NCBI GenBank assembly: GCA_024685175.1
Contig: JAIKWD010000018.1
Span: 1-64,000 of the forward strand
From: Bacteroidales bacterium
Lineage (GTDB): Bacteria > Bacteroidota > Bacteroidia > Bacteroidales > WCHB1-69
Length of the DNA: 64,000 nucleotides
Direction: 5' to 3'
Positions 3,688 to 36,274 of the stretch are shown here, in pieces; the first letter of the stretch is position 1; each line of letters begins with the position of its first letter. The notes beneath the pieces were generated by a model. That model saw nothing but the letters and a program-made list of their open reading frames with translations. It searched no databases and had not been told where the DNA came from. A program made the translations under genes and the position numbers.

Positions 3688-3722
3688 GCAGATGGCAGAT
3701 AGCAGATAGACGTTAGCAAATT
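3688..3722. repeat. Degenerate 7-bp tandem repeat (heptad array)
   Basis: Five consecutive 7-mers: GCAGATG, GCAGATA, GCAGATA, GACGTTA, GCAAATT. The array lies between the divergent gcvT and rnfD promoters. It is one of several intergenic arrays in this window that share a 7-bp period. Confidence 0.75.
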
Positions 3723-3730
3723 TTTTATGA

Positions 3731-3763
3731 TTTTGACGTTTTATTCAAAATTTGTATCTTTGC
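3731..3763 (+). promoter_or_regulatory. Promoter of the rnfDGEA operon
   Basis: TTTTG at 3731-3735 (-33 box) and TATCTTTGC at 3755-3763 (-7 box) are separated by 19 bp, the canonical Bacteroidota spacing. It lies 50 bp upstream of the rnfD ATG, so this operon is transcribed starting from rnfD. Confidence 0.85.
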
Positions 3764-3813
3764 AAGTTTTTAAAAAATCATTGAGATAAAGAGTAAAAAA
3801 TAAATATAGAACA

Positions 3814-4770
3814 ATGAACAGATTACTAAATGTTTCCGGTTCTCCCCACGTCCACAGCGATGATTCCGTCAAGAAGATCATGTGGTCGGTGGTGATAGCC
3901 CTGATGCCGGCTTTTGCAGTGTCCATCTTCTATTTTGGGCTTCCGGTAATTATCCTCACTTTGGTGTCCGTGGGCTGTTGCGTCCTGTTCGAGTACTTGG
4001 TCCAGCGTTTCATAATGAAGGTGAAGCCGACGATCAGCGACGGGTCTGCAGTGGTGACGGGTGTGCTGTTGGCTTTCAACGTGCCGGCCAATCTTCCGAT
4101 TTGGATGATGGTGGTGGGCGCTTTGGTGGCCATCTGCATTGCCAAGATGCCCTTTGGCGGTTTGGGTCATAACCCCTTCAACCCCGCTTTGGTGGCCCGC
4201 GTGTTCCTGCTCATCTCTTTCCCGGTGGCGATGACCTCCTGGCCGGTGCCGACGCCCATCTGGGGCTTCACCGATGCCATCACGGGACCCACACCGCTCG
4301 GTATTCTCAAAGAAGGCTCCGCCGTTGAAATGCCTACCTATATGAATATGTTGGTAGGACAGATGGGCGGCAGTTTCGGCGAAGTATCCGCTATTGCACT
4401 GCTCATCGGTGCCGTGTTCTTGCTGATCCGCAAGGTCATCACCTGGCACATCCCCGTTTCGTTCATCCTCACCGTGTTCGTGTTCGCCGGCATCTTCTGG
4501 CTCATCGACCCGTCACAATATGCCAATCCGTTCTTCCACGTGTTGGCAGGCGGCCTCATCCTCGGCGCTTGCTTTATGGCTACCGATATGGTGACCTCGC
4601 CCGTCACGCCGTGGGGTATGATCGTGTTCGGCTGCGGCTGCGGTCTGCTTACCATCATCATCCGTATGTTCGGTGCCTACCCAGAAGGCGTGTCCTTCTC
4701 CATCTTGATTATGAACGCCCTCGTGCCGCTCATCAACAAGGCCTTCAAACCCAAAACATACGCCAAATAA
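3814..4770 (+). CDS. rnfD: Ion-translocating Rnf complex subunit D
   Basis: RnfD is a membrane subunit of the Rnf complex, which couples ferredoxin:NAD+ oxidoreduction to Na+ or H+ export across the inner membrane. The 318-residue protein has eight to ten hydrophobic segments. It contains the NqrB/RnfD signatures FGGLGHNPFNPALVARVF and ACFMATDMVTSPVTPWG. Thr160 in DAITGPTPLG fits the site of covalent FMN attachment. It is the first gene of a run rnfD-rnfG-rnfE-rnfA. Usually rnfB and rnfC precede it, but here a promoter and the divergent gcvT lie directly upstream. Confidence 0.93.
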   Translation: MNRLLNVSGSPHVHSDDSVKKIMWSVVIALMPAFAVSIFYFGLPVIILTLVSVGCCVLFEYLVQRFIMKVKPTISDGSAVVTGVLLAFNVPANLPIWMMVVGALVAICIAKMPFGGLGHNPFNPALVARVFLLISFPVAMTSWPVPTPIWGFTDAITGPTPLGILKEGSAVEMPTYMNMLVGQMGGSFGEVSAIALLIGAVFLLIRKVITWHIPVSFILTVFVFAGIFWLIDPSQYANPFFHVLAGGLILGACFMATDMVTSPVTPWGMIVFGCGCGLLTIIIRMFGAYPEGVSFSILIMNALVPLINKAFKPKTYAK

Positions 4771-4788
4771 CCTTAAAACATTTTGGAT

Positions 4789-5379
4789 ATGACTGAGAAA
4801 AAAGAAGCATCATTAATAAAGTTGGTGGTTGTGCTGACCGCCATAGCCTTGGTGGCAGGTCTCGCCTTGACGGGTGTGTACGCGCTGACCAAGGGCCCCA
4901 TCGATTTGTCACAGAAACAGAAAAAAGACAAGGCCCTGAACGATGTGTTGCCTGGCTTTACCGGCACCATTTCCGATACCGTCATCAACTATGAGGGCGA
5001 CGACATCCTTGTGCATCGTGCTTATGAAAAGGATGGTACCTTCTTCGGTGCTGGTGTTGAGACGTTTACCAAGAAGGCCTTTGCCGGTCGCTTCGACCTG
5101 ATGGTGGGCTTTGATTCTGCTGGTGTCATCCTCAATACTGAGGTCATCAAGGCTGGTGAGACACCTGGCTTGGGCGACAAGATCAACAAGAACAAGAGTG
5201 ACTTTGCAAAGCAGTTCAATGCCCAAGATCCTGCTGAATATAAGTTGCAGGTTACCAAGGACGGCGGTGACGTTGACGCCATCACGGCAGCCACCATCTC
5301 CTCGCGTGCATACTGCGACGCGGTGCAAAGAGCTTACAATGTTTTTATGAAAGAAGTAAAGGAGGCCTCCAATGAGTAA
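4789..5379 (+). CDS. rnfG: Ion-translocating Rnf complex subunit G
   Basis: RnfG is a flavoprotein subunit with one N-terminal membrane anchor (about 10-33) and a periplasmic FMN-binding domain. The motif GETPGLGDKI (123-132) and the flavinylation motif DAITAATISS are typical, with Thr169 as the likely FMN-linked residue. I chose the ATG at 4789, which gives 196 residues; a TTG two codons upstream is less likely. The gene overlaps rnfE by 8 bp, suggesting translational coupling. Confidence 0.93.
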   Translation: MTEKKEASLIKLVVVLTAIALVAGLALTGVYALTKGPIDLSQKQKKDKALNDVLPGFTGTISDTVINYEGDDILVHRAYEKDGTFFGAGVETFTKKAFAGRFDLMVGFDSAGVILNTEVIKAGETPGLGDKINKNKSDFAKQFNAQDPAEYKLQVTKDGGDVDAITAATISSRAYCDAVQRAYNVFMKEVKEASNE

Positions 5380-5995
5380 AGCTAAGATTTTAACCAAAGG
5401 ATTTTTCAAGGAGAATCCGAGCCTCATTCTGGTGCTCGGTATGTGTCCGACCTTGGCCGTCACCACCTCGGTGAACAACGCGCTCGGTATGGGCGCCGCC
5501 ACCACCTTCGTGCTGTTGATGTCCAATATGATCATCTCCGCGTTGAAGAACATCATCCCCGACAAGGTGCGTATTCCGTGTTTTATCGTCATCATTGCCA
5601 CATTCGTGAGTATGATAGACTTGATTATCCAGGGCTTCCTTCCCGCTTTGTCCGAGAGTCTTGGCGTGTTTATCCCGTTGATTGTGGTCAACTGCATTGT
5701 GTTGGGTCGTGCGGAAGCCTTCGCCAGCAAGAATACTGTATTCGACTCCCTTCTCGATGGTCTTGGAATGGGCATCGGCTTCACCATCTCGTTGGTGCTC
5801 GTCGCTGCCGTGCGTGAGATCCTCGGTGCGGGTTCGTTTATGGGTATGCAGTTTATCCCGTCACACTATAATATATTGTTGTTCGTGCTGGCTCCCGGCG
5901 CCTTCATCGTGCTCGGCTTCGTGATGGCCGCCGTGCGTCAGATCGTTAACAAGGTGGAAGCCAAGCGCAAGGCAAAGGCCGTTTGTGCCAAGTAA
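5372..5995 (+). CDS. rnfE: Ion-translocating Rnf complex subunit E
   Basis: RnfE is an integral membrane subunit with six predicted transmembrane segments in 207 residues. The signatures LVLGMCPTLAVTTSVNNALGMG and LIVVNCIVLGRAEAFASKN are characteristic of the RnfA/RnfE/NqrD/NqrE family. It carries one of the conserved membrane cysteines (Cys in GMCPTLA). It overlaps the end of rnfG by 8 bp and is followed 33 bp later by rnfA. The basic C-terminal tail is probably cytoplasmic. Confidence 0.94.
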   Translation: MSKAKILTKGFFKENPSLILVLGMCPTLAVTTSVNNALGMGAATTFVLLMSNMIISALKNIIPDKVRIPCFIVIIATFVSMIDLIIQGFLPALSESLGVFIPLIVVNCIVLGRAEAFASKNTVFDSLLDGLGMGIGFTISLVLVAAVREILGAGSFMGMQFIPSHYNILLFVLAPGAFIVLGFVMAAVRQIVNKVEAKRKAKAVCAK

Positions 5996-6028
5996 TTTTA
6001 TTGTCAAACCTTTAGAGCTTAAAGAATT

Positions 6029-6619
6029 ATGGAATATATTTTAATGATTATCGGAGCGGTATTGGTCAACAACATCATCTTGGTGCAGTTCCTCGGCATT
6101 TGCCCTTTCCTCGGTGTGTCAAGCAAGGTGAATACCGCCGCAGGTATGGGTGTAGCCGTCATCTTCGTCATGGCACTGGCCACTTTGGTGACATCTGCCC
6201 TCCAAAAATATGTGTTGGTCCCGCTGAACATTACGTTTTTGCAGACTATTGTCTTCATCTTGGTCATCGCCTCTTTGGTGCAGATGGTCGAGATTATGCT
6301 CAAGAAACTGAGCCCATCGCTGTACAAGGCATTGGGCGTCTATCTGCCGTTGATCACCACCAACTGCGCCGTGCTTGGTATCGCCATTAAGGTGACCGAG
6401 CAGCCGCTGATTGCCGCCCACGGGTTCTCCGTCATCGATAGTACCATCTATGCGGTGGCCATTGCCATCGGCTTTACGCTGGCTATCGTCATCTTTGCCG
6501 GCCTTCGTGAGCAAATGGAACTGGTGGACGTCCCCAAAGGAATGAAAGGCGTGCCTATCGCCCTCATCACCGCCGGTATTCTCGCTATGGCATTTATGGG
6601 ATTCCAAAATCTGGTGTAA
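6029..6619 (+). CDS. rnfA: Ion-translocating Rnf complex subunit A
   Basis: RnfA is the membrane partner of RnfE; together they form a pseudo-symmetric pair thought to hold an iron-sulfur centre in the membrane. The 196-residue protein has six transmembrane segments. It has the conserved VNNIILVQFLGICPFLGVSS near the N-terminus and YLPLITTNCAVLGIA in the middle, each with the key cysteine. It is the last gene of the cluster and is followed by a strong hairpin terminator. Confidence 0.95.
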   Translation: MEYILMIIGAVLVNNIILVQFLGICPFLGVSSKVNTAAGMGVAVIFVMALATLVTSALQKYVLVPLNITFLQTIVFILVIASLVQMVEIMLKKLSPSLYKALGVYLPLITTNCAVLGIAIKVTEQPLIAAHGFSVIDSTIYAVAIAIGFTLAIVIFAGLREQMELVDVPKGMKGVPIALITAGILAMAFMGFQNLV

Positions 6620-6644
6620 AAAAAATCACGCTATACATCAAAGC

Positions 6645-6677
6645 GCGCCGTGTTCTAACGAATACGGCGCTTTTTTT
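6645..6677 (+). terminator. Intrinsic terminator of the rnf operon
   Basis: A 9-bp stem (6645-6653 with 6662-6670, one G-U pair) with an 8-nt loop is followed by seven T. It lies 26 bp after the rnfA stop codon. Confidence 0.88.
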
Positions 6678-6717
6678 GGACGTCGAATGCGTCCCCCAAC
6701 CCCTCACCAGAGTAATG

Positions 6718-8154
6718 CTAACTCCAAACTCCAAACTCCTCAAACATCTTCTCCTCGAAGTTGATGAGGTACACGTTCTGTGTGCTTCGCGTCACTGCAG
6801 TGTAGAGCCAGCGTATGTATTCCCGATCCAGGTTCTCCTCGGTCAGATAGCCCTGATCGATGAGCACGTTCTTCCATTGGCCGCCTTGCGTCTTGTGGCA
6901 CGTGAGCGAGTAGGCAAACTTCACCTGCACGGCGTTGAGATGCGGGCTGTTCTTGATCTTAAGGAACCGTGCCCGCTTGTTGACGATGTCTTCATAGTCT
7001 TCCGCCACCGCTTGATAGAGCCGTTGGTTGTCCTCGTAGGGTAGGGATGGACCGTCCACTTCCAGACTCTCCAGTATGATCTTGATGTCGATGTCGGGAT
7101 AGTTGGGGTAGTCGCACAGTCGGACGGTGACGTCGGCGAAGTTGAAGCCGTAGATTTCCTGTTGTTTGTGGATAGCCATCACCTCCATAATGTCGCCGTT
7201 GGCGATGAATCCCACCTCGGAGGTCTCGTCCACCCAGTAGTAGTTGTTCTTGACGGCCATCAGGTAGTCGCCGGTAGCGAGGCGGTTTTCGCGATATAGG
7301 ACGCGACTGCGAATCTCATTGTTGAAGAGTCGGGCGCGCTTGTTGGAGCGAGTGATGGCCACGATCTCGTCGCAGTCGTAGTGGTTGTAGAGGTTGTTGA
7401 GCAAGTCTTCGAGTTCGCCGCCGGGCACACGCGCGAAGTCGGCGAAGGGCTTACGGCTGAAGAAGGGGAACCCGATGTCGCCGTCGTTGAGTCTGTTGCG
7501 CAGCAGGGTGGCGTTGTAGAGAATGCCGGAGTCGAGGGTCTGGCGCACCACGTCGGTGAGGCGTGCGCCGCGGATGTGCAGGTCGTAGCGATGGTGCAAG
7601 TACTCGGCGTCGAGGGCGGGACTCTCGGTGGCGTGCACGGGTGGCAACTGCGCATCGTCTCCGATGAAGAGCATCCTATTGTGCGGGGCGCCGTTCACGT
7701 ACTCGATGAGGTCGTCCAGCAGACTGCCCATCCCTGGCAGTTCGCCCATCGGCGACTCGGCCGAGATCATCGAGGCCTCGTCCACGATGAAGAGCGTGTG
7801 GCTGTACTTGTTCTCCTTGCGGAAGAACTGGCGGATGCCGTTGCGCGTGCCCAACCGGTAGATCCACTTATGGATGGTGTAGGCCTTGCGACCTGCGTAT
7901 TGGGAGATGACCTTGGCGGCACGCCCGGTGGGAGCCAGGATCACCGTTTGCACCTTCAGCTCCTCCAAGGCACGAATCAGCGCGCTTACCAAGCTGGTCT
8001 TGCCCGTGCCTGCGTAGCCCTGCAGGATGAAGAGGAACTGCTCGCCGCGCTCGAAAATGAAACTCGCCAAGGCCTCCATCGCCACGCGCTGGCTGTCGGT
8101 GGGCTCGAACCCGAACTGGGCTTGCAGTCGTTTTAGGAAATCCTTTTGTGTCAT
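6718..8154 (-). CDS. RecD/Dda-like superfamily 1 DNA helicase
   Basis: A 478-residue ATP-dependent helicase. Walker A is GYAGTGKT (46-53), followed by APTGRAAKVIS and the DEAS Walker B (125-128). The C-terminal UvrD_C_2-type block has YSLTCHKTQGGQW and YTAVTRS. It is much shorter than RecD2 and resembles the stand-alone helicases common in Bacteroidota, probably acting in DNA repair or fork processing. I use the ATG at 8154; an upstream TTG at 8163 is less likely. It starts 9 bp after the birA stop, forming an operon birA-helicase. Its last codons are made of a 7-bp repeat (GAGTTTG, GAGTTTG, GAGTTAG) that supplies the stop. Confidence 0.85.
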   Translation of the reverse strand: MTQKDFLKRLQAQFGFEPTDSQRVAMEALASFIFERGEQFLFILQGYAGTGKTSLVSALIRALEELKVQTVILAPTGRAAKVISQYAGRKAYTIHKWIYRLGTRNGIRQFFRKENKYSHTLFIVDEASMISAESPMGELPGMGSLLDDLIEYVNGAPHNRMLFIGDDAQLPPVHATESPALDAEYLHHRYDLHIRGARLTDVVRQTLDSGILYNATLLRNRLNDGDIGFPFFSRKPFADFARVPGGELEDLLNNLYNHYDCDEIVAITRSNKRARLFNNEIRSRVLYRENRLATGDYLMAVKNNYYWVDETSEVGFIANGDIMEVMAIHKQQEIYGFNFADVTVRLCDYPNYPDIDIKIILESLEVDGPSLPYEDNQRLYQAVAEDYEDIVNKRARFLKIKNSPHLNAVQVKFAYSLTCHKTQGGQWKNVLIDQGYLTEENLDREYIRWLYTAVTRSTQNVYLINFEEKMFEEFGVWS

Positions 8155-8163
8155 TGTCGTCAA

Positions 8164-8910
8164 TTATAGAAACACGATCTCTTTGAATCCGCAGGTGTGC
8201 CTTTGACCGTCTTTGTCGATGAGTTCGAGCCGGCCGTATTCGTCCAGTCCCGTGATCTTGGCTTCTTTTCGCTCGCCGAGTATGAGGTATTCGTGAATCT
8301 CGCCGTATTGGTACATATTGTCAAGATAACGTTGATGGAGTCTTTCGGCGTTGTCAAGAGAGAGTTGGGCGTAGTTGTCGCGTAATATCTGCCAATACTC
8401 GTTCAACAAGATGTCGGGGTCGTGCAGTTGCCCGGTCTCGAGGAACAGCGAGGTGGGGTGGGGGATGCCGTCGGGAAAGTGGTCTTGGTTGACGTTGAGG
8501 CCGATACCGGCCACGGTGTGGTGGAGACGTTCGCCCTGGAGCACGTGCTCAATGAGGATGCCTGCCATCTTCTTGCCGTACACATAGATGTCGTTGGGCC
8601 ATTTGACCTGCACCTCAGGGATGTATTTGCGGATGAAATCCAACGTGGCCAATGCAAAGTATTGGTTGAACAAAAACTGTCGGTTTGCGGGGATGTTTGG
8701 CTCGAAATAGAAACTGACCAATATGTTTTGCCCTGGATCGCTGAACCAACGGTTGGCGCCCATCCCGCGGCCGTCGGATTGGAAGTCGGTGTGGAGGGTG
8801 AAAAAAGGAGGGACCGGCTTGCCCGTTACGGGAGCCCGATCCGCCATTTCGAGTAGTAATTTATTGGTAGATGGTACGTTAGGTATAAATTGTATCAACG
8901 TGTTTTTCAT
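8164..8910 (-). CDS. birA: Biotin--[acetyl-CoA-carboxylase] ligase
   Basis: BirA activates biotin to biotinyl-AMP and attaches it to the lysine of biotin carrier proteins. This 248-residue form has only the catalytic and C-terminal domains, without the DNA-binding repressor domain. The biotinyl-binding loop is QSDGRGMGANRW (44-55), followed by KWPNDIY (103-109) and KMAGIL (114-119). The start at 8910 is chosen because an in-frame extension to 8967 reads through the promoter region. A TATTTTTGC element lies only 3 bp upstream of the ATG, suggesting little or no 5' leader. The helicase gene follows 9 bp downstream. Confidence 0.9.
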   Translation of the reverse strand: MKNTLIQFIPNVPSTNKLLLEMADRAPVTGKPVPPFFTLHTDFQSDGRGMGANRWFSDPGQNILVSFYFEPNIPANRQFLFNQYFALATLDFIRKYIPEVQVKWPNDIYVYGKKMAGILIEHVLQGERLHHTVAGIGLNVNQDHFPDGIPHPTSLFLETGQLHDPDILLNEYWQILRDNYAQLSLDNAERLHQRYLDNMYQYGEIHEYLILGERKEAKITGLDEYGRLELIDKDGQRHTCGFKEIVFL

Positions 8911-9642: not shown

Positions 9643-9644
9643 AA

Positions 9645-9686
9645 AGTTCAAAGTTCAGAATTCAAAATTCAAAATACAAAATACTG
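9645..9686. repeat. Degenerate 7-bp tandem repeat (heptad array)
   Basis: Six 7-mers in register: AGTTCAA, AGTTCAG, AATTCAA, AATTCAA, AATACAA, AATACTG. The array begins 2 bp after the stop codon of the lipoprotein gene. Confidence 0.8.
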
Positions 9687-12298: not shown

Positions 12299-12333
12299 AA
12301 TTCAAAATTCAGAATTCAAAGTTCAAAGTTTTT
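12299..12333. repeat. Degenerate 7-bp tandem repeat (heptad array)
   Basis: 7-mers AATTCAA, AATTCAG, AATTCAA, AGTTCAA, AGTTTTT directly follow the murA stop codon. The units match those at 9645. Confidence 0.8.
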
Positions 12334-19440: not shown

Positions 19441-20901
19441 ATGAAAAAAATATTCCTTCTGTTGGCCGTAATGCTGGTTTCGCTGGCATCTTTCTCCCAG
19501 AATATGAAGGCCTTCATCAGCCACAAGGCCTATTGTACTGATAAAATGCAGCCCTACATTGAGTTCACGTTCATCGTGGGCGGCAACTCAGTTCGCTATG
19601 CACTTAACGATCATCAGAAATATGAGGCCGATGTGGATGTGCGCGTCGATGTGGCCCAAGGCGACATGATTGTCAAGACCTTGCACTATATTCTTGCAAG
19701 CGAAGAACTTGCGGATACTGCAGGGATTCTTCCCGACTTTGCCGATGTGAAGAACTTGCCGGTGCCCAATGGCGATTTCTTCCTCAACTTCTATCTTACC
19801 GACCTCAACCAGGATTCGATGCAGTTGAAATACATCGACCGCATCGTACTCAATTTTCCCGAAGACAAGATATCCTCTTCTCGCATCTCGTTGTTTGAGG
19901 ATATGCGTGCGCCGGAGTCCACCGATTTGCACGTGAAGTATGGATTTGCCCTGCCGCCTTCATACTACAATTACATTCCCGAAAGTCAGTATACACTGCC
20001 GTTCGCCATTGAGATATACAATACCAAACACGTTTTGGGTGCGAATAAGCCAATGTATGCCAAGTGCTTTGTGGAGCACGCCGAGAATAAGTTGGTTGCA
20101 ATGCCGAATAGTGTGATAACTAAACGACTGACCACAGATGACGTGGTGCTGGTGCTGGATCAATTCAATGTTTTCAAACTGCCTTCCGGAAATTATAATA
20201 CGGTCGTGGAGTTGTATGATGACAATGACAGTCTCTTGTTGGTCAACAAGGTCTTCTTCCAAAGAAGCAATCCTTCGGTGCAACTGGACCTCACAAGTTA
20301 CGATGATGTGGTCATCGACGGCTCGTTCGTATCCACGATGACGGACCGTAAGAAACTGGAAGATGACGTAAAATGTCTATATCCCATCGCCACGAATGTG
20401 GAGCGGGAGTTCTTTGACAACCGGATGAAATATGTCGAAGATAATCAACTGCAACGCTATTTCTACGCTTTCTGGCTGGCGCGCAACCCCAATAATCCGG
20501 AGGCCGCCTGGAAAAACTACGAGAAGTTGGTTGCGATGGTGCAAGAACGCTTCGGCAGCAAACAAGTGAAGGGGTATCGTACCGATCGTGGCCGTGTATA
20601 TTTGCAATACGGTCAACCTAATGAGATTATGGAGGTGCCTTCCGATCCGACGACTGTACCGTATGAGATTTGGCATTACTACTATCTCGATGACCAATCC
20701 AACGTGAAATTCGTGTTCTACGATCCCTCTTTGGTGGGTAACGACTATGAACTGCTGCATTCCAACAAGTACGGCGAACCGCATGACACGAGCTGGAAGA
20801 TGAAACTTGTGAAGAAGATCCAGCCGCAGACCGATATCTATGAGACCGACCCCGACAGCTACTATGGCGGCGATATCAACGGCAACTGGCGGTATCATTG
20901 A
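19441..20901 (+). CDS. GWxTD-domain secreted protein
   Basis: A 486-residue protein with a signal peptide (about 1-19, ending SFSQ). The C-terminal third matches the GWxTD domain: FYAFWLARNPNNPEAAW, then a GYRTDRGRVYLQYGQPNEI block, followed by an IWHYYYL segment. The N-terminal two thirds are beta-rich without a recognised family. GWxTD proteins are widespread in Bacteroidota, exported, and of unknown function. The gene lies 46 bp after glyS and is followed by heptad repeats. Confidence 0.85.
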   Translation: MKKIFLLLAVMLVSLASFSQNMKAFISHKAYCTDKMQPYIEFTFIVGGNSVRYALNDHQKYEADVDVRVDVAQGDMIVKTLHYILASEELADTAGILPDFADVKNLPVPNGDFFLNFYLTDLNQDSMQLKYIDRIVLNFPEDKISSSRISLFEDMRAPESTDLHVKYGFALPPSYYNYIPESQYTLPFAIEIYNTKHVLGANKPMYAKCFVEHAENKLVAMPNSVITKRLTTDDVVLVLDQFNVFKLPSGNYNTVVELYDDNDSLLLVNKVFFQRSNPSVQLDLTSYDDVVIDGSFVSTMTDRKKLEDDVKCLYPIATNVEREFFDNRMKYVEDNQLQRYFYAFWLARNPNNPEAAWKNYEKLVAMVQERFGSKQVKGYRTDRGRVYLQYGQPNEIMEVPSDPTTVPYEIWHYYYLDDQSNVKFVFYDPSLVGNDYELLHSNKYGEPHDTSWKMKLVKKIQPQTDIYETDPDSYYGGDINGNWRYH

Positions 20902-20982
20902 TTAGGAATGAGGAATGAAAGGTTTGGATAAAATAATCTTAAATCTCACATCTCAAATCACTTAGAATTCTGAATTTTGGGT
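20901..20982. repeat. Two adjoining heptad arrays
   Basis: ATTAGGA, ATGAGGA, ATGAAAG, GTTTGGA at 20901-20928, then AAATCTC, ACATCTC, AAATCAC, TTAGAAT, TCTGAAT at 20941-20975. Both have a 7-bp period and fill most of the gap before the sugar transferase. Confidence 0.7.
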
Positions 20983-23779: not shown

Positions 23780-23784
23780 ATTAA

Positions 23785-23899
23785 AATTCAAGGTTCAAAA
23801 TTCAAAGTGATTATAATAGATAATAGATAATAGATGATGGATAGATTAGTGACTAGTGATTAGTTTCCCCATCCTTTTCATTCCTAATCCCTCATCGCA
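23785..23899. repeat. Intergenic region built of heptad repeats
   Basis: AATTCAA, GGTTCAA, AATTCAA (23785-23805); TAATAGA three times then TGATGGA (23814-23841); GATTAGT, GACTAGT, GATTAGT (23844-23864); CATTCCT, AATCCCT, CATCGCA (23879-23899). Nearly the whole gap is periodic at 7 bp, with small phase shifts between blocks. Confidence 0.8.
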
Positions 23900-26122: not shown

Positions 26123-26168
26123 CAAAAAAAGCGGTTAGAAGTTTGCAATTTACGGTTGGCTTTTATTG

Positions 26169-26203
26169 CTATCGGCTAACAGCTATCCGCTATCGGCTAT
26201 TTT
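26169..26203. repeat. Degenerate 7-bp tandem repeat (heptad array)
   Basis: CTATCGG, CTAACAG, CTATCCG, CTATCGG, CTATTTT in exact register, ending 2 bp before the aroA -7 element. It occupies the space where a -33 box would be expected. Confidence 0.78.
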
Positions 26204-28578: not shown

Positions 28579-29001
28579 CTATAACACAAGAACGGCAATG
28601 ACCCAACGTGGAGGCAAGCCGTCGAAGTAATAGACTTTCTCGCCCCATTTGTCTTTGAGCCGTATCGTAGGGCCGTCAATATAATACAATGCCGCCCCCC
28701 ATTGATCCTTGAGACGTACGCTATTACCATCAAAATAGAGCAGCTTTTCCCCCCATCGATCTTTCAGTCGTACCGTGCTGCCATCCATGTAGAACAATTT
28801 TTCTCCCCATTGGTCTTTTAGGTGAACGGTGCTGCCATCGAAATAAACGAGCTTTTCACCCCATTGATCTTTTAGCCGTAATGTCTGATTGTCAATATAA
28901 TATAGTTTCTCGCCCCATTGGTCTTTTAGTCGTATGGTGGTCTGGGCCGAAAGAGTAAGAACCATTGAGATGACAAAACAGATAAGAAATGTTTTTTTCA
29001 T
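28579..29001 (-). CDS. Secreted protein of six 18-residue WGEKL repeats
   Basis: A 140-residue protein: a signal peptide (1-20, ending TLSAQ), then six tandem 18-residue units (22-129) and a short tail PPRWVIAVLVL. The consensus is T-x-R-L-K-D-Q-W-G-E-K-L-x-Y-x-D-G-x. Each unit could form a beta-hairpin, so a small solenoid or propeller-like stack is plausible. It differs from the WG repeat of Pfam in spacing and residues, and I do not recognise the family. Unit 5 has AA instead of EK. It has its own promoter, divergent from thrS. Function unknown. Confidence 0.75.
   Translation of the reverse strand: MKKTFLICFVISMVLTLSAQTTIRLKDQWGEKLYYIDNQTLRLKDQWGEKLVYFDGSTVHLKDQWGEKLFYMDGSTVRLKDRWGEKLLYFDGNSVRLKDQWGAALYYIDGPTIRLKDKWGEKVYYFDGLPPRWVIAVLVL
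28615..28938 (-). repeat. Six tandem 54-bp coding repeats
   Basis: The DNA encoding the six 18-residue units repeats every 54 bp within the reading frame. Copies differ by scattered substitutions, mostly at third positions and at the three variable residues. Confidence 0.8.
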
Positions 29002-31041: not shown

Positions 31042-31065
31042 GTTGATATTTAACAAGTGAATTGT

Positions 31066-31097
31066 GGGGCTGTCGCATTTGCGATAGTCCCTTTTTT
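31066..31097 (+). terminator. Intrinsic terminator of thrS
   Basis: An 11-bp stem (31066-31076 with 31081-31091, two G-U pairs) with an ATTT loop, followed by six T. Confidence 0.88.
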
Positions 31098-31139
31098 ATA
31101 ATTATTTGAATGTACAAGACTCGTCGCTAATTAATTGTG

Positions 31140-31148
31140 TATTTTTGC
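31140..31148 (+). promoter_or_regulatory. -7 element of the DUF5686 gene
   Basis: TATTTTTGC lies 47 bp upstream of the ATG at 31196 and matches TAnnTTTGC. Confidence 0.6.
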
Positions 31149-31195
31149 GATGAGATTTCGGCACGCCAGAACGAATTTGTCTAAACATTTAACCC

Positions 31196-33796
31196 ATGGA
31201 TATCATAAGGGGAGTTCGTGCAATCAGACGACTGGCTGTCCCGTTTAAGACGGCGGGGTGGTGGCTTGTGTTATGGATGCTCATCGGGCAGGTGTCGGCA
31301 CAGGAACTGAGGGGAAGAGTGTTCACGACGGATGAAAAGGGTGACACGGTAGCGGTACAAATGGCACGATTGCAATGGCTCCATGCAACGGTGGGAACCT
31401 ATACCAATATTCGCGGAAACTATAAACTTCCCTTTGCGAACACCGATACACTAGTGATTTCTTATTTCTTATATTCGTCAGATACTGTGATTGTTAAGAA
31501 AGGAGAGCGGCAACGGGATTTTTTTATCAATGTGACACAATCCTTGCAGGAAGTGGTGGTCTCCAAAAAACGAAAACCGAGATATTCACGCAAAGGGAAT
31601 CCCGCTGTGGAATTGTTGGAAAAAGTGATTGATCACAAATATGAAAACCGCATTGAATCAGTCGGGGCTTATAAATCAAAGATTTACAAGAAAATGGTGA
31701 TGTCGTACGGGCGGTTTCACATGAATTTCCAAAAAAACAGCTTTAACCGGCAACTCTCTTTCTTGGCAAAATACGTGGATACCATTCGGACAGATACCAT
31801 GCCCGTGTTGACATACTCTCTTCGGGAGTCACTGACAGATCACTACTATCAAAAATCACCGCGCAAGAATGTGAACTATGTAGTCGCCAGACGAATGCAA
31901 GGTCTTGATGAATCTTTGGACGATGAGGGTCTCGGCACCAATCTGGAAGCCATGTTCACGGATGTGAATATCTTTGATAATGATATAGAGTTGATGCTCA
32001 ATAAGTTTGTGAGCCCACTCTCATCTTCGCTCGCCACAACGTATTACCATTATTATATTACCGATACTGTGACAGTAGACAGTGTCTCATGCATCGAGCT
32101 CACGTTCTCGCCTGTAAACAGTAGGAACTTCGGATTCACCGGCCGACTGTATGTGGTGAACGACAGTACCTATGCTTTGAAGAAATATGCCATTAATGTG
32201 CCGATTCTAATCAATATGAACTTTGTGAGGCAATTGATTGTTGAGCAGGATTTCATGAAGATTGACAGTGGCTGCTGGGCACCAAAGTCGGCACAAACCC
32301 TGGCCTCTTTTTCCTTGGTTAAAAGAAAGAAGCAGCGGCAGATTTATATTCGTCAGAATACAGTGTGGTATCAATACGAGATGGGGACAACCATCCCGGA
32401 TTCATTATCGTCGGCGGGACAAGAGACGGAAGCGGCGAATGTGCGATATAGGAATTGGCAATGGAAGAAGATGAGACCGGAACCGTTGACTGCCCAAGAG
32501 TCTGTTCTGGACAGCATATCGACCGAATTACGCCGACTCCCTTTTTTCAAGGCATTGGAAAAGACAGCGGAAATCCTTGCCTCTGGCTATATTTCCACAA
32601 CGAAGGAGCGGAAAAACAGTCTCTTTGACATTGGCCCGGTGTACAATATGATCAGTCGCAATCCCATTGAGGGACTTAGGTTTAGAGTAGGTGGAATGAC
32701 AACCGCCAAAATGAATGACCGCTGGTTTTTGACAGAGTATGTCGCCTTTGGATGCAAGGATTTGCGCATCAAGTACAATGCCACTTTGATTCATAGTTTT
32801 GTTAAAAAATCGCGCCATTTCAACGAATTTCCGCGAAACGCACTATCTCTCAGCACAAGTTATGATTTGGAAATGCTTGGGCAGAGTTTCACTTATATGG
32901 ATCGAGACAATTTTCTTATGTCTTATACGGTGGATACCCTGGCCGCTGCGGCGCAATATGTTCGTCGTGGCCAGTTGCGCTATGTGTGCGAATGGCCAAG
33001 CCGTTTCAGTGTGGACACATGGTTGCAATATGATCACTGCGAGGCTGCAGGAGCGATGAACTATTTTCGGATCAATGCTGACGGGACTACCACCCGAATG
33101 GTCGATTTCCACAATTGGGAATGGGGTTTGAAGTTGCGCTGGGCACCAGGGGAACGGATTTATAATAATCAGACAGGAAAGGATAACCTGTTGAAGCTCT
33201 CCAAAAACGCTCCGGTTTTGCAGATTACGCATACGTCGGGCCTTTTGGACGGACGGACATGGTACCATCGGACGGAATTGTCCATGGAAAAGCGCTTCTG
33301 GCTCTCAGCGTTCGGGCATATTGATGCAAAGATTCAAGGAGGAATTGTGTGGAACAGAGTACCGTTTACGAAGTTGTTCACACCACCCAGCAACCGATCT
33401 ATGTTCCTTGCACCCAATACGTTCTGCTTGATGCGGCCGATGGAATTTATTATGGACAAATATGTGGCGTTGTACGCTACTTACCACCTGAAAGGATGGA
33501 TTTTCAATCGCATACCTCTCTGGAATCGGCTGAAACTACGCGAGGTGCTCTCGTTCAGTGGCGTTTACGGCGGGCTTGCCCCCCGCAATATACCCGATGC
33601 CAGTACACCAGGACTGTATGTGTTGCCTGACGGTTGTTCTCCGATCGGGAGACTACCGTATATGGAGATTACGGCTGGTGTTGAAAACATTCTCACAGTG
33701 TTGCGCATTGACTATGTCCGTCGTCTTACCTATGCTCGTGACTTGAAAAAATGGGGAAAAAACGGTATTCGGGTATCCCTGAATATTTCCTTCTGA
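31196..33796 (+). CDS. DUF5686/carboxypeptidase-like outer-membrane protein
   Basis: An 866-residue outer-membrane protein. After a signal sequence (about 20-36) comes a carboxypeptidase-regulatory-like beta-sandwich (LRGRVFTTDEKGDTVAVQMARLQ to about 110). A DUF5686 region begins at KPRYSRKGNPAVELLEKVIDHK. The C-terminal half is a series of amphipathic strands ending in IRVSLNISF, typical of a large barrel. Such proteins resemble TonB-dependent receptors in layout but lack a plug and TonB box. Function is unknown. The gene stands alone with its own promoter. Confidence 0.82.
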   Translation: MDIIRGVRAIRRLAVPFKTAGWWLVLWMLIGQVSAQELRGRVFTTDEKGDTVAVQMARLQWLHATVGTYTNIRGNYKLPFANTDTLVISYFLYSSDTVIVKKGERQRDFFINVTQSLQEVVVSKKRKPRYSRKGNPAVELLEKVIDHKYENRIESVGAYKSKIYKKMVMSYGRFHMNFQKNSFNRQLSFLAKYVDTIRTDTMPVLTYSLRESLTDHYYQKSPRKNVNYVVARRMQGLDESLDDEGLGTNLEAMFTDVNIFDNDIELMLNKFVSPLSSSLATTYYHYYITDTVTVDSVSCIELTFSPVNSRNFGFTGRLYVVNDSTYALKKYAINVPILINMNFVRQLIVEQDFMKIDSGCWAPKSAQTLASFSLVKRKKQRQIYIRQNTVWYQYEMGTTIPDSLSSAGQETEAANVRYRNWQWKKMRPEPLTAQESVLDSISTELRRLPFFKALEKTAEILASGYISTTKERKNSLFDIGPVYNMISRNPIEGLRFRVGGMTTAKMNDRWFLTEYVAFGCKDLRIKYNATLIHSFVKKSRHFNEFPRNALSLSTSYDLEMLGQSFTYMDRDNFLMSYTVDTLAAAAQYVRRGQLRYVCEWPSRFSVDTWLQYDHCEAAGAMNYFRINADGTTTRMVDFHNWEWGLKLRWAPGERIYNNQTGKDNLLKLSKNAPVLQITHTSGLLDGRTWYHRTELSMEKRFWLSAFGHIDAKIQGGIVWNRVPFTKLFTPPSNRSMFLAPNTFCLMRPMEFIMDKYVALYATYHLKGWIFNRIPLWNRLKLREVLSFSGVYGGLAPRNIPDASTPGLYVLPDGCSPIGRLPYMEITAGVENILTVLRIDYVRRLTYARDLKKWGKNGIRVSLNISF

Positions 33797-33909
33797 TACG
33801 TCAGAGGTGTGGTCCCTGTATCATTGATATAGATGCGGCTGTTTTTTTGTTTTTTTGCGGGATGTAAGGTGGTGGGTAAAATTCCTCCCGTTCGTATTCG
33901 TAATTTGCG

Positions 33910-33918
33910 TATCTTTGC
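33910..33918 (+). promoter_or_regulatory. -7 element of ffh
   Basis: TATCTTTGC lies 46 bp upstream of the ffh ATG. Confidence 0.68.
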
Positions 33919-33964
33919 AGCTTAATTTGTGAATTGAAAATCATACTAAAATATTGTAGTAGAA

Positions 33965-35305
33965 ATGTTTGAAAGCTTAACCGACAGACTAGAAAGAGCA
34001 TTCAAGATCATCAAGGGTCAAGGCTACATCACCGAAATCAATGTGGCGGAGACGATGAAAGAGGTGCGTAAGGCGCTCTTGGATGCCGATGTCAGCTATA
34101 AAATTGCCAAAGATTTCACCGATGACGTTAAGAAGAAGGCGCTGGGCATGAATGTGCTTAAAGCCGTTTCTCCTAGTCAGTTGATGGTGAAGATAACATA
34201 TGACGAGCTCATCAACTTGATGGGTCGAGAGGCGGTCGATATTAACCTAAAAGGTAATCCCGCCGTCATCTTGATGGCCGGTTTGCAAGGTTCCGGTAAG
34301 ACCACCCACGCCGCCAAATTGGCCAATATGCTCAAGAGCAAGCGCGGCAAGAAGCCGTTGCTCGTGGCCGGCGACGTATACCGTCCCGCTGCTATCGACC
34401 AGCTCAAGGTGCTGGGCGAGCAAATCGGCGTGGAAGTGTATAGCGAGCCCGATAGCAAGGAGCCCGTCAAGATTGCCAAGAATGCCGTGAAGCACGCCAA
34501 GGATTATGGCTATGATGTTGTATTGGTTGATACCGCCGGCCGTTTGGCTGTCGATGAAGAGATGATGACGGAAATCGGCAACATCAAGGATGCCGTTAAT
34601 CCGCAAGAAATCCTCTTCGTGGTAGACGCTATGACCGGCCAAGATGCCGTGAATACCGCCAAGGCCTTCAACGACAAGCTGAACTTCGACGGTGTGATCC
34701 TCACCAAGATGGATGGCGACACCCGCGGTGGCGCCGCCCTGACCATCAAGGCTGTGGTCGACAAGCCCATCAAGTTCATCGGTACAGGCGAAAAGATGGA
34801 AGCCCTTGACGTGTTCCATCCCGACCGCCTCGCCGAGCGTATCCTTGGCATGGGCGACATTCGTTCCTTCGTTGAAAAGGCGCAAGACCAATTCGACCAG
34901 GAAGAAGCCGCCAAACTGCAAAAGAAGCTGGCCAAGAACCAATTCGACTTCAACGACTTTCTGGCCCAGATCCAACAAATCAAGAAAATGGGCAACGTCA
35001 AGGACTTGATGTCGATGATTCCCGGTATGGGCAAGGTCATCAAGAATATGGATATCGACGACAACTCCTTCAAGAGCGTTGAGGTTATCATCCAATCCAT
35101 GACCCCCCAAGAGCGTGCCAATCCCGACATCATCAACGGTTCCCGCCGCAAGCGTATCGCCAATGGTAGTGGCAGTGACATGCAAGATGTCAACCGCCTG
35201 CTCAAACAGTTTGACGAGATGCGGAAGATGATGAAGATGGTGAACAGCGGCAAGGCAAAAGGCCTGATGCGTGCCATGAACGCTCCGGGACGCCGACCGT
35301 TGTAG
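33965..35305 (+). CDS. ffh: Signal recognition particle protein Ffh
   Basis: Ffh binds the 4.5S RNA and signal sequences of membrane proteins emerging from ribosomes. The 446-residue GTPase has the N domain, G1 GLQGSGKT (106-113), G3 DTAGR, G4 TKMD and the GDTRGGAAL motif. The M domain is methionine-rich (DLMSMIPGMGKVIKNM; EMRKMMKMV). The C-terminus is APGRRPL. The folD gene follows, separated by a perfect palindrome. Confidence 0.96.
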   Translation: MFESLTDRLERAFKIIKGQGYITEINVAETMKEVRKALLDADVSYKIAKDFTDDVKKKALGMNVLKAVSPSQLMVKITYDELINLMGREAVDINLKGNPAVILMAGLQGSGKTTHAAKLANMLKSKRGKKPLLVAGDVYRPAAIDQLKVLGEQIGVEVYSEPDSKEPVKIAKNAVKHAKDYGYDVVLVDTAGRLAVDEEMMTEIGNIKDAVNPQEILFVVDAMTGQDAVNTAKAFNDKLNFDGVILTKMDGDTRGGAALTIKAVVDKPIKFIGTGEKMEALDVFHPDRLAERILGMGDIRSFVEKAQDQFDQEEAAKLQKKLAKNQFDFNDFLAQIQQIKKMGNVKDLMSMIPGMGKVIKNMDIDDNSFKSVEVIIQSMTPQERANPDIINGSRRKRIANGSGSDMQDVNRLLKQFDEMRKMMKMVNSGKAKGLMRAMNAPGRRPL

Positions 35306-35312
35306 GATCCCG

Positions 35313-35338
35313 TATAGACGCACGGCCGTGCGTCTATA
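35313..35338. repeat. Perfect 26-bp palindrome (REP-like element)
   Basis: The core AGACGCACGGCCGTGCGTCT is flanked by TAT and ATA, making 26 bp fully self-complementary. It lies just after ffh and lacks a U-tract, so it is not a standard terminator. The same 20-bp core recurs at 36293. Confidence 0.85.
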
Positions 35339-35384
35339 TCCCCCAAAAATAAATAAACAGAACACCTCCAAACCCCAACCAAAA

Positions 35385-36257
35385 ATGCCCAATATCATCG
35401 ACGGAAAGGCAATCGCCTCCACAATCAAGACAGAAATCGCAACTGAAGTAAAGTCCTTGCTGGACCATGGGAAACCCGCACCGCACTTGGCGGTCATCAT
35501 TGCCGGCGAAGACGGTGCTGCACTGAGCTATGTGAACAGCATTGAAAAACAGTGCAAGGGTGTGGGCTATATTTGCTCAGCGTACAAGTTTCCGGCCAAT
35601 GTGCCCGAAAAGGACATCTTGGACACCATCGACTTCCTAAACAGCGATGACGAGGTGGATGGCTACATCATCCAGATGCCTCTGCCCAAGCAGGTTTCCA
35701 TAGACAAAGTGGTGGCTCACGTGGATCCGCGCAAAGATATGGATTGCTTCCATCCCGTCAACATGGGCAACCTGGTGTTGGGCAAAGATTGCTACGCACC
35801 AGCCACGCCCCACGGCGTGATGGAACTCTTGCGCCGGAGCAACATCAATACCACAGGCAAGAATTGTGTTATTGTGGGTAGAAGCAATATTGTGGGTAAA
35901 CCGTTGGCTATGATGTTGTTGCGGAAAGACGCCAACGCCACGGTCACGGTGTGCCACAGTCGTACCAAAGACCTCAAGAAAGTGTGTAGTCGCGCCGACA
36001 TCCTCATTGTGGCCATAGGTCAACCGGAGATGATAACCGCTGATTATGTCAAAGAGAAAGCCACCGTTATCGATGTGGGTATTCACAGAATCCCTGACCC
36101 GGCGCAACCCAACGGTTACCGCGTATGTGGCGATGTCAAGTTTGACGAGGTGAGCAAGAAATGCGAAGCCATTACGCCTGTCCCCGGCGGCGTGGGCGCC
36201 TTGACAATGGCTTGCCTGCTCCAAAACACGATGAAAGCGTATAAGAGTAGACAGTAG
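35385..36257 (+). CDS. folD: FolD-like methylene-THF dehydrogenase/cyclohydrolase with altered active site
   Basis: FolD interconverts 5,10-methylene-THF, methenyl-THF and 10-formyl-THF using NADP. From ATG 35385 the protein has 290 residues. It retains IQMPLPKQ, KDMDCFHPVN, VGRSNIVGKP and PVPGGVGALT. The YxxxK motif, however, reads YVNSI (Tyr49, Ile53): the catalytic lysine is replaced by Ile (codon ATT). In characterised FolD proteins that Lys is essential for cyclohydrolase activity. DVDGFH is changed to DMDCFH and GGVGPMT to GGVGALT. The protein may be dehydrogenase-only or use another residue such as Lys55. Confidence 0.88.
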   Translation: MPNIIDGKAIASTIKTEIATEVKSLLDHGKPAPHLAVIIAGEDGAALSYVNSIEKQCKGVGYICSAYKFPANVPEKDILDTIDFLNSDDEVDGYIIQMPLPKQVSIDKVVAHVDPRKDMDCFHPVNMGNLVLGKDCYAPATPHGVMELLRRSNINTTGKNCVIVGRSNIVGKPLAMMLLRKDANATVTVCHSRTKDLKKVCSRADILIVAIGQPEMITADYVKEKATVIDVGIHRIPDPAQPNGYRVCGDVKFDEVSKKCEAITPVPGGVGALTMACLLQNTMKAYKSRQ

Positions 36258-36274
36258 TCAGTGAACAGTAAAGA
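36247..36274. repeat. Degenerate 7-bp tandem repeat (heptad array)
   Basis: GTAGACA, GTAGTCA, GTGAACA, GTAAAGA in register. The array begins inside the last codons of folD and so encodes its final residues. Confidence 0.75.

Follow-up and report, generated by a model that had tools for sequence, protein, structure and literature searches.

Tandem arrays of 7-bp units at gene edges in the intergenic DNA of gut Bacteroidales

The window, a stretch of 64,000 nucleotides from a Bacteroidales assembly (GCA_024685175.1, contig JAIKWD010000018.1), contains short degenerate tandem arrays of 7-bp units, mostly beside genes (Table 1). In a lag scan (match +1, mismatch -2), six segments reached the threshold score of 11 at lag 7 and none did at lags 4-6 and 8-13. 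Lags 14, 15, 18 and 21 gave three, one, one and two such segments, and one segment each scored 10 or more at lags 6, 8, 9 and 12. Seven heptamer sites had been listed in a first-pass annotation of this DNA; five of them passed the scan (3688, 9643, 12299, 23813 and 26168), the two at 20901 and 36247 were weak and failed it, and the array at 6720-6739 (AACTCCA, lag-7 score 13) had been overlooked. The exact register described there holds inside the arrays.

The array at 6720 lies in a reverse ORF that encodes a helicase-like protein (Pfam AAA_30 and UvrD_C_2). The EPSP_synthase-family gene that ends before 12299 is presumably murA, and orthologous spacers of this site were identified in relatives. 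Within the mosaic at 23783, the TAATAGA part (23813-23842) scored 17 at lag 7 and the AAAATTC part (listed at 23785) was detected by TRF only; by eye, heptamer-like words continue past 23842 to about 23900. We take the motif TATCTTTG beside the 26168 array to be a possible -7 box. At 36247, the 21-bp duplication (36265-36306) surrounds a GC-rich palindrome, GACGCACGGCCGTGCGTC; the window site fails the lag-7 threshold, and its orthologous site in genome G029 scores as a lag-7 array. No known RNA family was found in the window at Rfam gathering scores.

Table 1. Heptamer arrays and related repeats in the window
Feature	Position	Strand	Scores	Context
GCAGATR array, ~3 copies	3688..3709	+	lag-7 score 12; TRF 39, 3.3 copies	divergent spacer, left gene edge 14 bp away; outward-pointing strand is the G-richer
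AACTCCA x2.9 (sense TTGGAGT)	6720..6739	-	lag-7 score 13	last codons of reverse ORF 6718-8163; array midpoint 12 bp from ORF 3' end
AAAATTC/AAAGTTC x5.7	9643..9684	+	lag-7 score 23; TRF 52	abuts TAG stop (offset 0); G 3, C 6, exception to the polarity rule
AATTCAA, ~4 copies	12299..12330	+	lag-7 score 16	directly 3' of TAG stop of EPSP_synthase-family gene; G 3, C 4, exception to the polarity rule
AGGAATG x2.1 and AATCTCA x3.6, short degenerate pieces	20904..20959	+	TRF 30, 36; below lag-scan threshold	3' of TGA stop; TRF pieces 20904-20918 and 20935-20959
Mosaic of AAAATTC x3.4 (weak), then TAATAGA x4.4	23783..23842	+	TRF 34, 48	
GCTATCG x4.7	26168..26200	+	lag-7 score 11	17 bp to right gene edge (own gene call); adjoins possible -7 box; G 7, C 10
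Weak GTAGTCA-like words, then 21-bp duplication	36247..36306	+	TRF period 21, score 70	

Intergenic DNA of this genome is periodic at lag 7. Across the window plus 400 kb sampled from its genome (237 spacers by our own gene calls, 30,325 bp), the lag-7 match was 0.3185 compared with 0.2772 in dinucleotide shuffles (z 14.4), with z 7.7 and 7.8 at lags 14 and 21. Lag 7 stood above its neighbours, a comparison that had been proposed as a check of the first reading (z 0.9, 4.7, 6.8 and 3.8 at lags 5, 6, 8 and 9), and the very short lags 2, 3 and 4 were likewise high (z 12.4, 16.7 and 9.1). By the same statistics, no lag-7 excess was found in the coding DNA of the genome sample. Runs of at least ten identical letters at lag 7 numbered 134 in the spacers of the genomes other than G000 (shuffle mean 0.5), with 0, 5, 30 and 8 at lags 5, 6, 8 and 9; G000 spacers held 20 at lag 7 (shuffle 0.1) and two at lag 8, and 1.46 Mb of coding DNA held five at lag 7. 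The lag scan and the shuffle controls together identify tandem 7-nt units longer than chance, as in heptamer simple sequence repeats.

Lag-7 arrays were also found across the related gut Bacteroidales sampled, and most were non-coding: 155 of 177 did not lie mostly inside an ORF, and 10 of the 22 that did were at most 21 bp from the ORF 3' end. The Alistipes/Rikenellaceae set, mostly metagenome assemblies, was nearly devoid of them (0.4 arrays per 100 kb in 466 kb), and 100 kb of E. coli MG1655 gave no arrays at any lag from 4 to 22. The claim that the units vary and the period stays fixed is nearly right: units differ between sites and also between species and 7 bp is mostly retained, with 8- and 9-bp arrays present in relatives as a rarer form.

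Statistically, most arrays abut a gene edge and have their G-richer strand directed outward, independent of gene direction. The nearer gene was on the 5' side of the G-richer strand in 152 arrays and on the other side in 49, at median distances of 5 bp and 66 bp, distances that could shift where our hexamer-based gene calls, which are not an annotation, trimmed or extended genes through arrays. These counts leave out arrays with equal G and C, count arrays sharing letters and 12-bp flanks once (as in the full set of 209 arrays) and assume independence among arrays; with one vote per distinct unit, which does not need that assumption, the ratio was 64 to 16 of 86 (p 5.9e-8). The G strand pointed outward at both 3' (79:29) and 5' gene edges (47:10), the polarity at 3' edges being limited to arrays that overlap the stop or lie no more than 5 bp from it (82:18, and 13:18 further away). 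Where two neighbouring arrays shared a spacer (27 pairs), the order was G-then-C in 21, C-then-G in two, GG in two and CC in two, and facing arrays were reverse-complementary (distance 0-1) in only 6 of 21. The G-richer strand had no C in 136 of 209 units. In convergent spacers the rule was obeyed within 12 bp of a gene by 26 of 29 arrays counting overlaps and 12 of 13 without them, and by none of three beyond 12 bp. Array density was 1.07-1.18 per kb in co-directional spacers compared with 0.54-0.59 in divergent and convergent ones.

Several small sets run counter to this rule: both lag-7 right-edge arrays from four other families were G-richer, as were one of two in Alistipes/Rikenellaceae and all four right-edge arrays of 8 or 9 bp in additional stretches. 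The 8-bp arrays of the main set gave 9:5 on the left and 5:12 on the right. A composition table inspected by eye showed no preferred target motif before the arrays other than the gene edge.

Heptamer vocabularies are specific to each genome: units were identical in 5.0% of pairs taken within a genome, in 1.0% of pairs taken between genomes and in 0.3% of pairs with letters shuffled. Among 203 arrays there were 100 distinct canonical units, with 17 distinct words in the G000 sample and 18 in that of G014. One dispersed family, TAAT(GGTTATN)4GAAGC, reaches some 90-100 copies in two genomes and is almost missing from three others; GGTTATNGGTTATNG matched 289 times in G014 and 288 in G021 (27 and 35 for the backwards-read pattern), and 3, 0 and 1 times in G000, G029 and G024. 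Exactly four units were present at 22 of 27 GGTTATN sites in G014 and G021, 19 followed TAAT and 16 preceded AAGC, and the N letters were position-specific; this fixed format describes one family in two related genomes, with orthologous sites counted in each. With up to one mismatch, AATTCAAAATTCAAA occurred 62 times in G000 (backwards control 0); some AT-rich genomes from other families have many matches as well (76 in G054, 37 in G051 and 34 in G044; controls 6, 8 and 7), so the word is not private to G000. Attempts to separate unit families by clustering failed, as single linkage at one-letter steps placed 199 of 202 arrays in one cluster; because the units form one such network, array families are not cleanly separable. 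Array length over 209 arrays had a broad peak at four and five units (50 and 53 arrays), in a distribution from which the detection threshold removes short arrays. A single dispersed repeat family without independent units had been named as the refuting alternative. The sampled arrays are not one such family, yet full independence of the units is not supported either, given the per-genome vocabulary and the one dispersed fixed-format element.

The spacer between phosphofructokinase and murA is empty in some species and holds arrays of differing units in others, and one spacer holds different arrays in two genomes that are 86% identical. Array lengths were compared between G014 and G021, which are 86% identical. 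Of 14 period-7 sites in G014 with both flanks in G021, three were equal in length, seven differed by multiples of 7 and four by other amounts; starting from G021 (17 sites), the figures were three, six and eight, where chance would give a multiple of 7 for one difference in seven. The first-pass annotation had suggested such a length comparison and a generating process; many differences are whole units, and a generating process is implied by one spacer carrying different arrays across species together with length changes that are often whole units. In long arrays, unit identity fell with separation (0.854, 0.816, 0.762, 0.712 and 0.681), which is local copying within them. Lag-7 identity also enters the last codons of genes (0.47-0.53 at positions -7 to -4, compared with 0.26-0.34 when permuted). 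Growth at one array end was not supported, proximal and distal unit pairs being equally alike (0.888 and 0.863, n 51, p 0.44).

Heptamer families are known from cyanobacterial genomes as short tandemly repeated repetitive (STRR) heptanucleotides. REP/REPIN elements, palindromes associated with RAYT transposases, are likewise short, dispersed and intergenic with many copies per genome, and differ from the present arrays, whose unit contains no palindrome; the Y1 transposase family PF01797 (Y1_Tnp) was detected in 37 of 40 relatives, for only seven of which array density was available. The first-pass statement that no described equivalent was known here was too strong. TAACTGA direct repeats have been reported from Beggiatoaceae, cyanobacteria and five Bacteroidetes (MacGregor 2015, PMC4679880). 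According to the portions of that article considered here, they share with our arrays the heptamer unit, the mostly intergenic position, often just upstream of start codons, the stops in all three frames and, in some Bacteroidetes, an admixture of other heptamers; they are one word across phyla, whereas words here change between genomes, and arrays here are at least as common at stops as at starts. The TAACTGA class (listed as the rotation AACTGAT) accounted for three of 203 arrays, all in G024, with none in the G000 sample.

A close match is to the heptamers GGGAATC and GGGGA(C/T)T of Xanthomonas and Nostoc, discussed in terms of G-quadruplexes (Rehm et al. 2015, PMC4692102). As far as the excerpted text of that article goes, those repeats are also 7-nt, intergenic and between co-directional genes, lie near the stop on the sense or near the start on the antisense strand, can overlap stop codons and vary in length and sequence between relatives. 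They prefer four units; here four units stood at 22 of 27 GGTTATN sites, and the overall peak at 4-5 comes from lengths cut off at the short end by the detection threshold. Their G strand likewise has the nearest gene on its 5' side irrespective of gene direction, which is what the 152 to 49 count gives here. They differ in that the words studied were one G-rich quadruplex-capable type per genome, compared with many words per genome here, and only 5 of 209 arrays had at least four GGG runs, the four tracts of three or more Gs that a quadruplex takes. Long simple sequence repeats of 5-11 nt with heptamers most abundant (Mrazek, Guo and Shah 2007, as cited in PMC4679880 and PMC4692102) resemble our arrays in the dominance of period 7 among longer units and in their scatter over phyla; the passages citing that work do not mention polarity, vocabulary or orthologous-site turnover.

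The arrays of these uncultured gut Bacteroidales are thus of a known kind, heptamer tandem repeats, without the G-runs used as an explanation. For the prevalence of heptamers among longer bacterial simple repeats, slippage is the only suggestion in the relevant passages of PMC4679880 and PMC4692102. In the present genomes many words share one period, and orthologous spacers are empty, filled, or filled with another word; the geometric rule is already in print for two other phyla (PMC4692102, in the part considered). From these three points, G-quadruplex formation is not a sufficient cause of the geometry. The layout common to Xanthomonas, Nostoc and these Bacteroidales suggests that what they share is a process and not a sequence.

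Our preferred reading, with a probability of roughly 0.43, is that these heptamer arrays belong with the long simple sequence repeats, that they spread as short cassettes and that their length changes by 7 bp at a time. Short cassettes, typically of four or five units, would be copied between places within a genome, giving the genome its own word set and at least one fixed-format family. A cassette would then gain or lose whole 7-bp units, a step supported by the G014/G021 pair and possibly proceeding by replication slippage or unequal recombination, and copies falling inside genes would probably be removed by selection. Three ingredients are testable: the spread, the 7-bp steps in length and the orientation relative to gene edges. 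The lengths from G021 to G014 fit this reading less well (8 of 17 by non-multiples of 7), the lag-7 register in last codons fits growth in place from the gene end better than pasting, and the presence of AATTCAAAATTCAAA in other families' AT-rich genomes, with unit families inseparable, also stands against it. A search for a moving activity with Y1 transposase PF01797 and reverse transcriptase PF00078 found none; PF00078 had no match in G000 or G021 and one in G014. Either enzyme as a common cause was unsupported in searches of 40 genomes for each of these two protein families, with array density for seven of the genomes.

Slippage purely in place, a chance 7-bp duplication growing on site as the host's replicating polymerase slips by 7 nt, is an idea credited to Mrazek 2007 in the relevant parts of PMC4679880 and PMC4692102. 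Whole-unit changes at half (7/14) or a third (6/17) of compared sites, identity that drops with distance, the register in last codons, one period for so many distinct units and their one-letter steps all agree with it. We consider it rather unlikely on its own, since slippage alone predicts neither genome-specific words at unlinked sites, nor a four-unit format with conserved edges, nor differing arrays at one spacer of genomes 86% identical, nor the G-strand rule. Selection on cis elements at translation starts and stops, for example unstructured leaders or sites for heptamer-binding proteins (for TAACTGA the proposed binders were S1, cold-shock and Csr proteins; PMC4679880, as excerpted), would explain the denser co-directional spacers and a sense strand at 5' edges mostly poorer in G than in C (57/71). 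It appears unlikely: the same gene pair carries different words across species or no array, the G000 and G014 samples have 17 and 18 words, the rule persists near genes in convergent spacers, which lack start codons (12:1 at 0-12 bp), units with no NTG on both strands still show the 5'-edge polarity (22:5), and there is no overall strand bias in stop codons (89 vs 81 of 124).

The outward G strands, the G-then-C order and the C-free G-richer units would also follow if DNA were broken or nicked close to a gene edge, an enzyme added heptamers, telomere-fashion, to the 3' end there and two extended ends were then joined, which would give both outward strands and facing pairs. This is highly improbable: telomerase-type extension would take a reverse transcriptase with its own template, and G000 and G021 had no match to the family PF00078; 3'-edge polarity is restricted to arrays at the stop, facing arrays are not usually reverse complements, and units near the gene edge resemble each other as much as distal ones do. 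The close named relatives are metagenome assemblies, the window's genome looks alike (38 contigs) and the gene calls are home-made, all of which could favour chance, composition or an assembly artefact; the shuffle controls, the array sites shared by two separate assemblies, often with whole-unit differences, the absence from 100 kb of E. coli and the near absence from the Alistipes/Rikenellaceae set make this exceedingly improbable. A broader and quite doubtful reading is that one unrecognised activity, common to the distant groups of these Bacteroidales, Xanthomonas and Nostoc, starts at gene edges and adds units of 7 nt, four as a rule, in the outward direction; the G strand would be growing or leading, and each genome would use a changeable word. 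Machine and geometry would then be shared rather than sequence, and G-quadruplexes would be a by-product of two groups' words. A dedicated activity, if real, would add a new way in which the intergenic DNA of gut bacteria changes.

Three narrower roles were rejected. A stop-codon cassette, in which 7 is coprime with 3 and a stop in the unit closes all frames, fails as a general cause, since stops occur about equally in sense and antisense units (89 and 81 of 124), even though TAG or TGA is often present in arrays touching a stop. Selection that removes Rho sites from sense transcripts would have no effect in convergent spacers, where the rule still holds near genes. Hairpin or terminator arms were not enriched, stems scoring at least 12 occurring in 14 of 168 array regions compared with 9.1% of 537 array-free spacers. 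Stems scoring at least 20 were commoner in array regions (3/168 vs 0.2% of array-free spacers), and facing complementary arrays do occur.

In the window, a lag scan detected six segments with a period of 7 bp (lag 7, score of at least 11); lags 4-6 and 8-13 yielded no segment of that score. Five of the seven intergenic sites listed in the first-pass annotation reach this threshold (3688, 9645, 12299, 23785, and 26169), 20901 and 36247 fall below it, and an additional array outside this list was found at 6720. An excess at lag 7 was found in a 464-kb sample of the window's own genome (G000; assembly of 2.12 Mb, 38 contigs, 98% complete), consisting of the window and 20 sampled 20-kb stretches (404 genes and 237 spacers, according to our own gene calls). 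The lag-7 match in spacers was 0.3185 compared to 0.2772 in shuffled spacers (z 14.4), with z of 0.9, 4.7, 6.8, and 3.8 at lags 5, 6, 8, and 9, respectively. Harmonics are visible at lags 14 and 21, lags 2-4 are likewise high, and a lag-7 peak is absent from the coding DNA of the sample. We found 36 lag-7 arrays with a score of at least 11 versus 0-6 at each other lag between 4 and 13; 31 are intergenic, and four of the remaining five are centred no more than 18 bp from a gene 3' end.

Named relatives, whose identities to the MurA-type protein are 93% and below, are uncultured Bacteroidales that come mainly from ruminant guts. Densities of lag-7 arrays vary among them and more distant groups (table below). 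Two further families have three arrays each in 93 and 192 kb, with a clear lag-7 peak absent, and no array at any lag from 4 to 22 was detected in 100 kb of E. coli MG1655. In spacers of the close genomes except G000, we counted 134 runs of at least 10 identical letters at lag 7 (0.5 after shuffling), compared to 30 and 8 at lags 8 and 9 and to 5 and 0 at lags 6 and 5, respectively, thus period 7 dominates and periods 8 and 9 are present.

Density of lag-7 arrays (score of at least 12, one best lag per site)
Genome or group	Arrays per 100 kb
G000	5.6
G029	11.4
G014	16.7
G024	8.5
Close named relatives pooled (MurA 75-89%), 459 kb	13.3
Next circle (MurA 68-75%; termite-gut, Lentimicrobiaceae, others)	7.8
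Three Pontibacter pieces	3.1
Alistipes/Rikenellaceae, 466 kb	0.4
Four other families of the order	0, 0, 0, 1.2
G004 and G018 (same genus as G000, low)	1.3, 2.9

The arrays are placed and oriented relative to gene edges. Among 90 co-directional spacers with an array, 43 arrays overlap the upstream stop codon or start within 5 bp of it, compared to 20.1 expected under uniform placement (sd 3.5, maximum of 33 in 2,000 trials), and the downstream start lies no more than 5 bp beyond the array end in 14 (8.4 expected, sd 2.6). The richer letter on the + strand follows the side of the spacer, with G>C in 65 and G<C in 24 arrays that are nearer the left edge and in 15 and 61, respectively, of those nearer the right edge. 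The direction holds for each of the four gene arrangements (least clearly at divergent left edges, 4:3), in later-fetched stretches (G>C:G<C of 14:5 left and 6:14 right), in the MurA 68-75% group (5:2 left and 2:5 right), and when only single-array spacers are counted (48:20 and 12:46); in spacers that lack arrays, the edge skews are 0.07 and -0.02. Along the G strand (the array strand richer in G than in C), the nearer gene is on the 5' side in 152 cases and on the 3' side in 49, at median distances of 5 versus 66 bp. This polarity amounts to 64:16 of 86 with one vote per distinct unit and to 50:15 of 72 with one vote per locus. In 27 pairs of neighbouring arrays within one spacer, the order is G then C in 21, and C then G, GG, and CC in two each.

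At gene 3' edges, only arrays that overlap the stop codon or lie within 5 bp of it show the polarity (82:18); arrays further out do not (13:18). Their own stop codons could account for the polarity of arrays overlapping an ORF (60:12); arrays starting 0-5 bp past the stop codon give 22:6 (TAA 12:1, TAG 7:2, and TGA 3:3). Avoidance of NTG could add to the polarity at 5' edges, where units lacking NTG on either strand still give 22:5. Four of the six arrays in the window obey the rule, the exceptions being 9643 and 12299, each directly after a TAG stop codon, and a few arrays outside the main set have opposite polarity. Lag-7 identity continues into the final codons of genes and thereby speaks for in-place growth there.

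Ignoring rotation and strand, 203 arrays comprise 100 distinct units, one of which is a run of N. Identical units occur in 5.0% of 1,231 pairs of arrays at least 1 kb apart within one genome, and in 1.0% of 14,303 pairs between genomes (0.3% for letter-shuffled units). Allowing one mismatch, AATTCAAAATTCAAA has 62 matches in G000, and 35 further genomes from the same genus have between 0 and 22 each; counts in other families of the order rise to 76 in G054, 37 in G051, and 34 in G044 (backwards controls 6, 8, and 7, respectively). GGTTATNGGTTATNG has 289 matches in G014 and 288 in G021 (backwards, 27 and 35) and is nearly absent from G000 (3), G029 (0), and G024 (1). A three-unit GGTTATN-family pattern has 183 matches in G021 (backwards, 7), which corresponds to roughly 90-100 places for the family. 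The family forms a dispersed element with a fixed format: of 27 places inspected across G014 and G021 (orthologous places entered once per genome), 22 have exactly four units, TAAT precedes 19 and AAGC follows 16, and the N letter of each unit is position-specific. At 25 of 26 sites of this family that were tested, the G strand has a gene edge nearby at its 5' side (a start codon at a distance of 3-28 nt in 20 and a gene 3' end in five). In long arrays (at least six units), unit identity drops with separation from 0.854 to 0.681, which is a mark of local copying. The units join at one-letter steps into a single network, so that their split into families is a matter of convenience.

Turnover was followed between a phosphofructokinase gene (pfkA) and an EPSP_synthase-family gene, a pair assigned by Pfam matches, the latter of which we take to be murA. 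Reading 41 distinct pfkA-murA spacers by eye, we found 13 with heptamer arrays, 11 that are short (-1 to 30 bp, including the 9 bp of the window), nine longer than 1.2 kb that apparently contain an extra gene, and eight with other palindromic or GC-rich elements and no clear arrays. The array words differ (GTGATTA, GACTTAA, GACGTGT, GGTTCAA, and AAAGTTC), and in about eight of the 13 the array start coincides with the stop codon or is a few bases away at most. Between G014 and G021 (86.3% identity over 106 kb), both flanks were found for 18 of 42 G014 sites, 14 of them with period 7: three have the same length, seven differ by multiples of 7 (35, 49, 14, 42, 14, 7, and 21), and four differ by 29, 53, 53, and 25. 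The reverse comparison recovered 21 of 42 sites, 17 with period 7 (three equal, six multiples of 7, and eight other); some sites are on both lists, and length differences are not clean counts where the flanks enclose a neighbouring array or an empty interval. At one spacer whose coding flanks align closely, one of the two genomes has GCTTTTA words, the other GTGATTA words.

A two-part process is best supported, in which short cassettes would spread within a genome (we infer both the movement of copies and its manner) and arrays would be resized in unit steps, with selection probably keeping genes free of them. We regard as established for this process the dispersed fixed-format copies of one family, the excess of whole-unit length differences, the different array at one orthologous spacer, and the edge geometry. 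A search for PF00078 in G000 and G021 gave no match; PF01797 is present in 37 of 40 relatives, of which too few have a known array density to weigh a link.

Heptamer repeats have been described in Xanthomonas and Nostoc (GGGAATC and GGGGA(C/T)T), with a preference for four units and the nearest gene at the 5' side whichever its direction; they lie near stops on the sense strand and near starts on the antisense strand, may overlap stops, and are placed between co-directional genes (Rehm et al. 2015, PMC4692102). That study discusses G-quadruplexes and leaves the function open. In contrast to those G-rich repeats, the Bacteroidales arrays rarely contain at least four GGG runs (5 of 209), which rules out classical quadruplexes as a common cause of this layout. 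Heptamer direct repeats of the word TAACTGA have been described for Beggiatoaceae, cyanobacteria, and five Bacteroidetes (MacGregor 2015, PMC4679880). Among the matches listed in a literature search, which lay outside most subscription journals, we found no description of these arrays for rumen Bacteroidales and none of this polarity for G-poor words.

Other repeats and elements occur in addition to the arrays (table below). GC-rich palindromes (GTAGAGACGC...GCGTCTCTAC and GTAGGGGCG...CGCCCCTAC) fill array-free copies of spacers that carry arrays in other species and occasionally adjoin arrays. A stretch like TTCCTTGAGCAGCCCCG..GGGGCAAGAGCTCGGTAG recurs dispersed in the spacers of these genomes, in some followed by a CCCAGGG/CCCTGGG hairpin. 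Small hairpin-like stretches (ACGACCGAAGGTCGT and GGCCTTCGGCC) adjoin some AATTCAA-type arrays in G000, and the similar TACGGTCGAAGGACC is next to GAATGNN arrays in G014. Long 8-bp arrays (GCGATGAT and variants) reach about 170 bp, with unequal lengths at orthologous places. The G000 counterpart of the 9-bp arrays (CATTCACCC and TTTACAAAC) is a 7-bp array, and about five copies of the 14-bp unit GGATAATTGATAAT form a higher-order repeat, a co-amplified heptamer pair.

Locations of other repeats and elements (L, individual loci of the compared genomes)
Feature	Context	Location
GC-rich palindromes	murA-glycosyltransferase spacers	L026, L027
GC-rich palindromes	window	36265-36306
GC-rich palindromes	pfkA-murA spacers	L030, L038, L045, L046, L087
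TTCCTTGAGCAGCCCCG..GGGGCAAGAGCTCGGTAG-like stretch	pfkA-murA spacers	L040, L080, L084, L099, L027, L072, L097
TTCCTTGAGCAGCCCCG..GGGGCAAGAGCTCGGTAG-like stretch	near array sites	L192, L161
Small hairpin-like stretch	G000	L010, L012, L005
TACGGTCGAAGGACC	G014	L159, L190 (G014/G021)
Long 8-bp arrays	G014	L067:253, L162:10871, L163:4221
Long 8-bp arrays	G021	L065:970, L190:14061, L192:5091
9-bp arrays	murA-glycosyltransferase spacers	L025/L071, L023
Higher-order repeat	G014	L162:17147
54-bp tandem repeat (3.4 copies)	window, overlapping reverse ORF 28579-29001	28695-28880
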